Shown here: positions 5,068 through 8,185 of the stretch, in pieces
Layout of the letters: every line of letters begins with the position of its first letter
How positions within the stretch are numbered: the first letter of the stretch is position 1
Position numbers and translations under genes: made by a program
Origin: Candidatus Dadabacteria bacterium
GTDB lineage: Bacteria; Desulfobacterota_D; UBA1144; Nemesobacterales; JADFKM01
Assembly: GCA_022564935.1 (NCBI GenBank)
Contig: JADFKM010000058.1
Location: forward strand, 1 to 12,941
Direction: 5' to 3'
Length of the DNA stretch: 12,941 nucleotides
The notes under the pieces: model-generated
Databases searched by the model: none
What the model was told of the DNA's origin: nothing
The model's input: only the letters and a program-made list of their open reading frames with translations

Positions 5068-5324
5068 CGTTGACAGCAAGCTCATGAGTGATTTAACAAT
5101 AGCGCCATGGCAAAGAGTTAAGGTTTCACTCAGTTTTGTAGCCTCGACCTCTGATGGATTAAGTGGCCCTGAGTGAATTTTGTAGACTGTGTTTCTGTTG
5201 AGTGATTAGCGCGTGAGGCGGAGGGTTGCGGGTTTTCCCGTTCAATGATCTCCGGGCCGGGCCAGTTTGAGATTAGAGGGGAAGTCCAGAGACTTAATTT
5301 ACGAGATACAGGAGGTTCACAGCC
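5068..5324 (+). other. 257-base non-coding gap before ispF with inverted repeats
   Basis: No credible gene is seen. TTCACTCAG (5125-5133) and CTGAGTGAA (5169-5177) are a perfect 9-bp inverted repeat 35 bases apart, each arm followed by TTTTGTAG (5134-5141; 5178-5185). A nested hairpin lies at 5219-5254: CGGAG and CTCCG outside, CGGG-TTTT-CCCG (5229-5240) inside. These could form a structured ispF leader or the end of the PIN-TRAM transcript. ispD, often found at this place in other genomes, is absent and I see no remnant of it. Confidence 0.45.
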
Positions 5325-5327
5325 ATC
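5311..5327 (+). promoter_or_regulatory. Shine-Dalgarno and ATC start codon of ispF
   Basis: GGAGGT (5311-5316) is a near-perfect Shine-Dalgarno, with GGAGG ending 9 bases before ATC (5325-5327). No ATG, GTG or TTG exists in this frame between the stop at 5295 and the GTG at 5391, and that GTG lies past essential residues. The placement is therefore used to decide an unusual ATC start. Confidence 0.65.
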
Positions 5328-5813
5328 AGGGTAGGGAACGGTTTCGATGCCCACAGGTTCACCGAGGGGAGCGCCGTTGTACTGGGCGGGGTGCAAATTC
5401 CGTTTGATCGCTCGCTGTCCGGTCATTCCGACGCCGACGTGCTGACCCACGCGGTAATCGATGCAATGCTGGGAGCGATAGGCGAGGGGGATATCGGGAC
5501 CCACTATCCTGACAGCGACCCTCGATTCGAGGGGCTCTCAAGCCTGGTCATGCTCCAGGAGGTTATGGGCATTCTTGGCTCGCGGGGTTACGGCCTCGTA
5601 AATGTGGATACGGTCTTGATCTGCGAAGAGCCGAAGCTGAAACCCTATGTCGGACGGATAAAAGAAGCGCTGGCTAAAACCCTTGGTGTATCGGGAGACC
5701 GTGTAGGCATTAAAGCCACGACTACCGAGGGAATGGGCTTCACGGGCAGGGGTGAGGGCATAGCGGCGTACGCGGTGGTTCTTTTGGAGAGTCTGGGAGA
5801 AGTGGATGAATGA
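5325..5813 (+). CDS. ispF: 2-C-methyl-D-erythritol 2,4-cyclodiphosphate synthase
   Basis: Converts CDP-methylerythritol 2-phosphate to the cyclodiphosphate in the non-mevalonate (MEP) isoprenoid pathway, in the cytoplasm as a trimer. Counting the ATC at 5325 as residue 1, the sequence begins (I/M)RVGNGFDAHRF, so the zinc ligands fall at D8, H10 and H42, exactly the numbers of the E. coli enzyme. GHSDADVLTH (33-42), GDIGTHYPDSDP and the C-terminal TTEGMGFTGRGEG are all canonical. Length is 162 residues, normal for the family. Starting instead at GTG 5391 would give 140 residues and lose D8 and H10, so a working enzyme needs the upstream start. The last bases overlap the comEC start (ATGA). The family call is very sure; the start codon could alternatively reflect a base error (ATG read as ATC). 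Confidence 0.93.
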   Translation: MRVGNGFDAHRFTEGSAVVLGGVQIPFDRSLSGHSDADVLTHAVIDAMLGAIGEGDIGTHYPDSDPRFEGLSSLVMLQEVMGILGSRGYGLVNVDTVLICEEPKLKPYVGRIKEALAKTLGVSGDRVGIKATTTEGMGFTGRGEGIAAYAVVLLESLGEVDE

Positions 5814-8185
5814 GTTTGTTCCTCTACAAATACCGCATCCTTCCCGTTGCTTTAGGGTTTATTCTCGGAATACTCATAACGGAGTACAGCGGGTGGAGAT
5901 GGGCGGCGGTAATACTGCTTTGCCCCGTTCTTGGGGCTTTGATCCTTTATAGGCCCAATCTCTCGTTCCTGCTGTTCATACCGATCGGAATTGTGGTGGG
6001 GACTAAACCGCCACTGCCGGATAATCACATACGAAACTATGTGGATGGGCGTATAAACATCGAGGGAGTGCTGTACTCCTCTCCACAGAGCAGGGTGGTG
6101 GGGAGCAGGTTGTTTATCGATGTGGACAGGGTATTTGTAGAGGGGATTGAAAGACAGGTTTCGGGGAAGGTTGTCGTCGCAACCACCGAGAGCATAAAGG
6201 GGCTTGTCAGGGGAGACAGGGTCAGGGTTATAAACCCGAGACTCCGCCGGGTGGGTTCTTATAAAAACCCGGGCGGAGTCGATATTAAAACCCGCATGGA
6301 AAGGCGGGGGATTTACGTCAGGGGTTATGTAGAGGGAGCGGAGTCCATCATATTCTTCGGCAAAAGCCGGTCGTACAGTTCTGCGCTCCATGTGATAGAC
6401 GGGTTGAGGTTGGGGTTTGCCGATTTCATCAGAAAAAACACTTCAATGCCTGGGAACGAGCTGCTAGCCGCCATCACCGTGGGAGATAAATGGGGGATAC
6501 CGCCTGAAGTAAGGGAACGCTTTTCAAGGGTTGGGGTGGCCCATTTGCTGGCAATCTCTGGACTTCACCTGGCCGCTATCGGGTTTTCGTTCTATTTCCT
6601 TGTCAAATGGCTGATGAAAAGGTCTGAATACCTGCTATTGAAGTTCCTGGTTCCAAGGTTAGCCGCTGCTCTCACCATAGCGCCCCTGGTTTTCTACCTG
6701 CTCGTGGCTGGGTTCGCGACCCCCGTGACAAGGGCATTTATAATGGCCGTAATTTTTTTGATAGCGGTTATTGCTGGAAAACAGTCCTCGAGGATAAACA
6801 TACTCTCTTTAAGCGCACTTGTGATACTGCTGCTGCATCCTGAGGCTCTTTTTGAGATTTCGTTTCAACTGTCGTTCATCTCTGTGCTGGGGATAATACT
6901 GATTCACAAACTAACCCCGTTCAAGACAGCCACGTTCAAGGGTAAGGTTATTAGCTCTGCAAAGACAACCGTTGGGGCTGGCTTTATGACTCTGCCCATT
7001 ATCATTAACACCTTCGGACTTATTCCTGTTCTCTCAATCCCGGCTAATCTTGTTTTTATACCTCTGGTCGGATTTTTCATTGTACCTATGGGAATGCTGT
7101 CTTTCCTTGTGTTTTTGCTCTCCGATTCCCTCTCCTTACCGCTGATAAAGATCACCATGGCGGGGGTGAATATCCTCATGTGGGGAGTCGAGGGCATATC
7201 CGGTCTGTCTCTCTCGGCTTTCACCCTGCCCAGGCTAAGCGCGCTGAGCTGGGCGCTTTATGGATTGAGCGTGGTTAATTTCATCTTGATCGGGTTTAAT
7301 CGCAGGTTTAGATACACGCTCCCCGTTACACTGGCTTGTTTCTTCACATTTTTGTTCTGGAGCCCGTTTGGAGGAGGAGGTAATTCTAACCTGAGGGTTC
7401 ATTTTCTGGATGCCGGACAGAGGAATATGCTCGTGGCCGAGCTGCCCGGGGGCAGGTCGCTGGCTCTTGACGGAGGCCGGTCGCGCAGGGGAGACAGCGG
7501 ATATATCGAAAGGGCGGTCTTGACCCCATTCCTTCTCAATTTGGGCCTGACGAAGATCGACTACCTATTCATGAGCTCGGTTGGAGAGGGTCATCGCGAG
7601 GGGATGAAATATTTGCTTAAGAAGATTAAGCTGGATGTGATGTTTACCCCCGGGCAAAAGCTTGATGGGGCTCTGTGGGAGATGATTCGCAGCGGCAGGT
7701 TCAGACACATAGATATGAGAACTCAGATGGAGCCCCTGGAGATTGGAGGTGTGCGAGTTGAGGTCTTTCAGCTAAACGGTATGGGAGAATCACGTACACG
7801 TGGAGACTCATACCCGATTGCGTTGAAGTTAAGTTTTAAAAAAGTAGCGGTCTTATTTACAGATGTCGGCGCTAAAGACGCTCCTATACTGCGGGAATTT
7901 GCCCGCTCTTACCCCGATAGGCTCAAATCTCGTGTGGTCTATGTCCCTGGATTAATTGAGAATGAAGAATATTATCAGGAGTTTTTACGTGCCGTGTCCC
8001 CTGAGATTGTAGTAACAAACGTAGCAGGTGGTAAAAGACAATCACCTAAAAAGATAGTATTAGAAGGCACTACTAAACCCCTCAGGGTATTAGAAACGAG
8101 CCGCAGCGGGTCGATAACTGTTGAAACTGACGGGACTCGTTTATGGCTGAGGACCTTTGTGGATGAAACGGAGGATATTATATAG
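5810..8185 (+). CDS. comEC: ComEC/Rec2-family DNA internalization channel
   Basis: Polytopic inner-membrane protein expected to form the channel that passes single-stranded DNA into the cytoplasm during natural transformation. Length of 791 residues is typical. Order of parts: N-terminal helices and a soluble OB-like region (about residues 1-200) with the conserved NPGGVDIKTRMERRGI; the Competence domain (about 215-510) with LLAAITVGDKWGIP, VGVAHLLAISGLHLAAIG, and VTRAFIMAVIF followed by many membrane helices; and a C-terminal metallo-beta-lactamase-like domain from about residue 526 (VHFLDAGQRN). That last domain is degenerate: the HxDxDH metal motif reads SVGEGH (590-595) and the HHGS region reads GLIE, so nuclease activity is unlikely. 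The start overlaps the ispF stop by ATGA, with GGGAGA upstream, so translation is probably coupled. The last ~250 bases are noticeably more AT-rich than the rest. Confidence 0.94.
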   Translation: MSLFLYKYRILPVALGFILGILITEYSGWRWAAVILLCPVLGALILYRPNLSFLLFIPIGIVVGTKPPLPDNHIRNYVDGRINIEGVLYSSPQSRVVGSRLFIDVDRVFVEGIERQVSGKVVVATTESIKGLVRGDRVRVINPRLRRVGSYKNPGGVDIKTRMERRGIYVRGYVEGAESIIFFGKSRSYSSALHVIDGLRLGFADFIRKNTSMPGNELLAAITVGDKWGIPPEVRERFSRVGVAHLLAISGLHLAAIGFSFYFLVKWLMKRSEYLLLKFLVPRLAAALTIAPLVFYLLVAGFATPVTRAFIMAVIFLIAVIAGKQSSRINILSLSALVILLLHPEALFEISFQLSFISVLGIILIHKLTPFKTATFKGKVISSAKTTVGAGFMTLPIIINTFGLIPVLSIPANLVFIPLVGFFIVPMGMLSFLVFLLSDSLSLPLIKITMAGVNILMWGVEGISGLSLSAFTLPRLSALSWALYGLSVVNFILIGFNRRFRYTLPVTLACFFTFLFWSPFGGGGNSNLRVHFLDAGQRNMLVAELPGGRSLALDGGRSRRGDSGYIERAVLTPFLLNLGLTKIDYLFMSSVGEGHREGMKYLLKKIKLDVMFTPGQKLDGALWEMIRSGRFRHIDMRTQMEPLEIGGVRVEVFQLNGMGESRTRGDSYPIALKLSFKKVAVLFTDVGAKDAPILREFARSYPDRLKSRVVYVPGLIENEEYYQEFLRAVSPEIVVTNVAGGKRQSPKKIVLEGTTKPLRVLETSRSGSITVETDGTRLWLRTFVDETEDII

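Follow-up and report, generated by a model that had tools for sequence, protein, structure and literature searches.

Introduction

Initiation at an ATH codon (ATA, ATT or ATC), in place of an NTG codon (ATG, GTG or TTG), is known in bacteria from several genes. The gene infC starts with AUU in Escherichia coli, ATC in Streptomyces and AUA in Staphylococcus aureus, and is subject to autoregulation by IF3 (PMC5472188, PMC13009471). Apart from infC, such starts have been described for E. coli pcnB (AUU) and for S. aureus ccpN (AUA), cvfC1 (AUU) and citZ (AUA), with the AUA and AUU starts in S. aureus reaching ca. 10–30% of the AUG level behind strong Shine-Dalgarno (SD) sequences (PMC13009471). 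In addition, sigR of Streptomyces carries a GTC start that is repressed by IF3 (PMC5472188).

The ispF gene described here lies in a window (the whole stretch of DNA analysed) of 12,941 nucleotides from the genome of an uncultured bacterium of the Candidatus Dadabacteria lineage, and can be read with good confidence as a working gene that would initiate at ATC 5325. Like infC, it combines an ATH start with an SD sequence. Unlike infC, whose ATH start is widely kept and which encodes IF3, ispF encodes a metabolic enzyme and has its ATC in this genome only. The nearest parallel is citZ of S. aureus, likewise of metabolic function and with an AUA restricted to a single strain lineage, although pcnB, ccpN, cvfC1 and citZ were measured in culture, whereas the ispF start is known here from sequence alone. 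With sigR, ispF shares a rare start that is misannotated by software; the restraint by IF3 is that of sigR, which also differs in starting with GTC rather than ATH and in having a conserved regulatory role proven by experiment.

The ispF frame and its candidate start

The ispF frame spans 5298–5813 of the forward strand, opening after a stop codon that ends at 5297, and from 5298 onward reads TTT ACG AGA TAC AGG AGG TTC ACA GCC ATC AGG GTA GGG AAC GGT TTC GAT GCC CAC. As the original prediction stated, positions 5298–5390 contain no ATG, GTG or TTG, and the first canonical codon of the frame is a GTG at 5391. An NTG-free run of 31 codons has a chance of ca. 26% at the local composition, and the missing NTG per se was dropped as evidence for the ATC start. 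The missing start matters because the gap falls within conserved IspF sequence, upstream of every canonical start. The SD sequence noticed earlier as GGAGG was read as AGGAGG, at the predicted and usable distance from the ATC (Table 1). No NTG codon can yield a complete IspF, and ATC 5325 appears, from the reading frame and its homology, to be the best-supported start of the gene.

Table 1. Positions of the features of the ispF locus and of genes with candidate ATH starts elsewhere in the genome.
Feature	Location	Strand	Remarks
Intergenic region, PIN/TRAM-like gene to ispF	5068..5324	+	257 bp
Shine-Dalgarno AGGAGG	5310..5315	+	read directly; spacer to ATC 5325 of 9 nt
ATC, most likely initiation codon	5325..5327	+	sole ATH at conserved N-terminus and SD distance
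ispF CDS from ATC	5325..5813	+	162 aa plus stop; D8, H10, H42
GTG, first in-frame canonical codon	5391..5393	+	start there removes residues 1-22, including D8 and H10
ComEC-like gene	5810..8185	+	from ORF list, named by reading the sequence; ATG overlaps ispF stop (ATGA)
rsfS	L180:17525 (G000:C59)	minus	relatives L229-L255
bioB	L295:2301 (G000:C74), L308	+	relatives L306-L335
ruvC	L174:5576 (G000:C53)	+	ATT, or ATA three codons earlier

Identity of IspF and the need for the gene

Counting the ATC as residue 1, the product carries D8, H10, H34, D38 and H42. E. coli IspF (1jy8) aligns to it from 1–154 to 1–154, which confirms without any offset the E. coli numbering first given for D8, H10 and H42, and PDB IspF chains match from residue 1. 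The full frame matches the IspF profile TIGR00151 (NCBIfam) over its whole length, from profile position 1 (1–154), with 201.1 bits against a curated cut-off of 116.45, and PF02542 matches 5325–5786 (E 2.3e-63). The product from GTG 5391 scores 162 bits on TIGR00151, its match beginning at profile position 23. The product has the complete set of metal ligands D8, H10 and H42 only when initiation takes place before GTG 5391; the predicted loss of D8 and H10 from a GTG start thus holds, as does the expected truncation, and an annotation limited to NTG codons would cut 22 residues of IspF including these two metal ligands.

A genome with the MEP pathway as its only route requires IspF. The genome under study (1.99 Mb in 104 contigs, 88.6% complete) contains one ispF, one clear ispD on another contig and ispG; neither a second ispF nor an HMG-CoA reductase was found in it at this completeness. 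With a single ispF beside ispD and ispG, and HMG-CoA reductase not found, the MEP pathway would need this ispF and a working start is to be expected. A dead ispF is therefore unlikely.

The ispF start in relatives

The start of ispF was compared with that in 30 other genomes of the class, the named ones being Candidatus Dadabacteria assemblies, comprising 29 genomes of the same order and one of the sister family f8; the set contains no genome of the same family. All 30 start ispF with ATG. This ATG mostly stands one codon earlier, in the form ATG-Tyr/His-Arg/Lys-Ile/Val-Gly, whereas the present genome reads GCC-ATC-AGG-GTA-GGG, the Tyr/His being lost and the ATC directly preceding the Arg. Since every relative has ATG, the ATC appears to be derived, peculiar to this genome among those sampled, and no conserved control of ispF is indicated. 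Comparison of this codon in close relatives had been proposed as a check on the prediction: it speaks against a control shared across the group, while the ATC start of this genome itself remains supported.

The ancestral ATG-Tyr/His start would have been replaced by ATC. One deletion of three bases could have produced the present sequence, ATG TAY AGG losing GTA to become ATY AGG, which would account for the new codon as well as for the absence of the Tyr.

Candidate ATH starts elsewhere in the genome

ATH starts were surveyed in 1.10 Mb of the 1.99 Mb of this genome and, for comparison, in 800 kb of G004, another member of the order, whose genome is a single contig. Genes were counted as testable where a homologue and an upstream stop lay within the stretch, of which there were 452. 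Among these, the conserved N-terminus extends upstream past every NTG, to an ATH codon, in ispF (ATC), rsfS (ATA), ruvC (ATA or ATT) and bioB (ATC), while the remaining start-less cases are frameshifted or interrupted genes, or alignments that lie outside real coding sequence. In ruvC the candidate start is the ATT, or the ATA before it, which stands 7 nt after GGAGG; most relatives have ATG, with a TTG further upstream in family f6. The infC gene of this genome has an ATA 8 nt after GGAGG, an SD that overlaps with a GTG five codons before the ATA. In G004, ATA is found in infC, at SD distance, and in rsfS, ATC in bioB, and an apparent ATA start after GAGAGG in the aconitase-like acnA (L222, minus frame 16533-19215), the ortholog of which has ATG in the present genome. 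Judged by their frames, infC and ruvC of this genome and acnA of G004 thus appear to begin at ATH.

A separate test considered codons upstream of the first NTG that are backed by a coding stretch and spaced 5–9 nt from a strong SD. ATH made up 8 of 27 such codons against 1.6 expected (p ~1e-4); the genes named above account for four of the eight, and the other four are weaker. Several candidates were not counted as ATH genes, namely rsmH (ATC, L301 minus 2787), which is without an SD, a purN-like gene (L146) and other SD-spaced matches, where canonical starts fit, and pgpA of G004 (ATC or ATT). No initiator tRNA was found among the scanned stretches of the genome. As a side observation, the minus frame 1717-3652 of L127 (G000:C6) has an ATA behind AAAGGAG and a signal-peptide-like N-terminus, its first NTG lying inside the signal peptide.

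Candidate ATH starts of rsfS and bioB across the order

Conservation of the ATH start among relatives, absent from ispF, is found in rsfS and bioB. The start position of rsfS, which encodes the ribosome silencing factor, is ATH in all 25 genomes examined from the order (ATA in 23, ATT in one and ATC in one). An SD is present in 24 of the 25, the ATA immediately follows the preceding stop codon in three, and an ATG occurs a few codons upstream only in G002. The sister family f8 has GTG or ATG in rsfS. The main bioB likewise starts with ATH in all 23 genes examined from 22 genomes (ATT 14, ATA 5, ATC 4), always 63 codons before a GNCPEDC-type motif, and nearly all have an SD-like sequence of at least 4 bases. 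Only two of the 23 have an in-frame NTG upstream, and the NTG of L317, one of the two, is separated from the ATT by the SD. The present genome carries two tandem copies of bioB, with ATT and ATC. A second bioB paralogue and the bioB of f8 begin with ATG; the use of ATG or GTG in the paralogue and in f8 shows that the ATH result is not forced by the method.

The order-wide starts of rsfS and bioB are a more interesting finding than ispF alone. A limited search of the literature found no account of them, and these two cases seem to be undescribed so far, the kind of gene itself being known from infC, pcnB and sigR.

Sequence error and other explanations

The main rival to an ATC start is an error of sequencing or assembly, by which ispF would be an ordinary gene with a true ATG, obscured by one wrong base call or by the loss of a triplet. 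The ATG of all 30 relatives would fit this reading, as would the fragmented assembly with some broken conserved genes (four frameshifts and two in-frame stops). A single miscall, however, leaves the missing Tyr unexplained, and the ATH starts of rsfS and bioB recur across independent assemblies. The rate of nonsense codons gives a bound: the 135,100 aligned codons contained only two in-frame stops, and since ca. 4% of random substitutions would create a stop, the error rate would be near 1e-4 per base if both stops are errors. About 0.05 ATG-to-ATH events would then be expected in the 452 genes, against the two seen, in ispF and ruvC, neither shared by relatives (Poisson p ~0.001, a post hoc estimate made by hand). 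This low nonsense rate lowers the probability that 5325 was miscalled or misassembled, and on balance such an error is rather improbable. The original claim that ispF starts at ATC is in turn sustained, most strongly by the recurrence of ATH starts in rsfS, bioB, infC and ruvC.

Translation only from elsewhere is very unlikely. The truncated product of GTG 5391 has in its favour that this is the first canonical codon, but it drops D8 and H10; the upstream ACG 5301 lies before the SD; and the frame that starts at an ATG (5245) and extends past 5325 in another phase, from which ispF would be reached through a frameshift, would add an extension that the relatives lack. Least probable of all is a decaying pseudogene that has lost its start and is untranslated. 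The lost ATG and an ATC without conservation in relatives would be compatible with decay, but apart from its start the frame is undamaged, all ligands and the SD are in place, and it is the only ispF of a genome that has ispD and ispG and in which no HMG-CoA reductase was found. Real ATH initiation at 5325 is thus favoured as the best explanation.

Conserved genes with an in-frame stop (the two noted above) or a frameshift were observed at L181:401-403, L183:9621-9623, L145, L147 and L293 (rmuC-like, a ClC channel, a permease and others), the stop in L181 occupying a Cys position of the homologue. These interrupted genes are errors or pseudogenes.

Proposed mechanism and implications

For initiation at ATC 5325, the AGGAGG 9 nt upstream would position the ribosome at this codon, fMet-tRNA would read AUC with a mismatch at the third position, and the first residue would remain Met. 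IF3 would discriminate against such a weak start, and IspF output probably amounts to a fraction of what an ATG would give. Initiation at ATC 5325 is thus probably weak and restrained by IF3, and what is known of infC, pcnB and sigR makes the low or IF3-dependent expression of ispF first suggested plausible.

Across the Dadabacteria order, ATH starts may act as a standing translational control, an idea put forward here tentatively. The starts of rsfS and bioB, like that of infC, could be held at ATA, ATT or ATC by selection so that output tracks the IF3 level and the state of the ribosome, while those of ispF and ruvC in this genome and of acnA in G004 would drift in and out. The order-wide starts suggest that IF3 may govern the output of rsfS and bioB. 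In the present genome ca. 1% of testable genes have ATH starts, two of them conserved order-wide, which suggests that such starts are undercounted in uncultured lineages, where many proteins are perhaps annotated too short by gene-finding software that misses them. In addition, an AUC start found in one lineage only, on the gene of an essential enzyme, would illustrate by what route such starts originate and how cells tolerate them.

Surroundings of ispF

The spacer upstream of the ATC contains TGAGTGA-type repeats and a 9-bp inverted repeat (5125–5133 and 5169–5177). No significant second copy of it was found in the genome, and a repeat or mobile element was rejected, the repeats being short and weak. 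RNA structure at the ispF start did not go beyond that of shuffled sequences (z = +1.0). Downstream, the ATGA overlap at 5810–5813 makes translational coupling of ispF with the ComEC-like gene possible, and through such coupling a weak initiation of ispF might also limit the ComEC-like gene.
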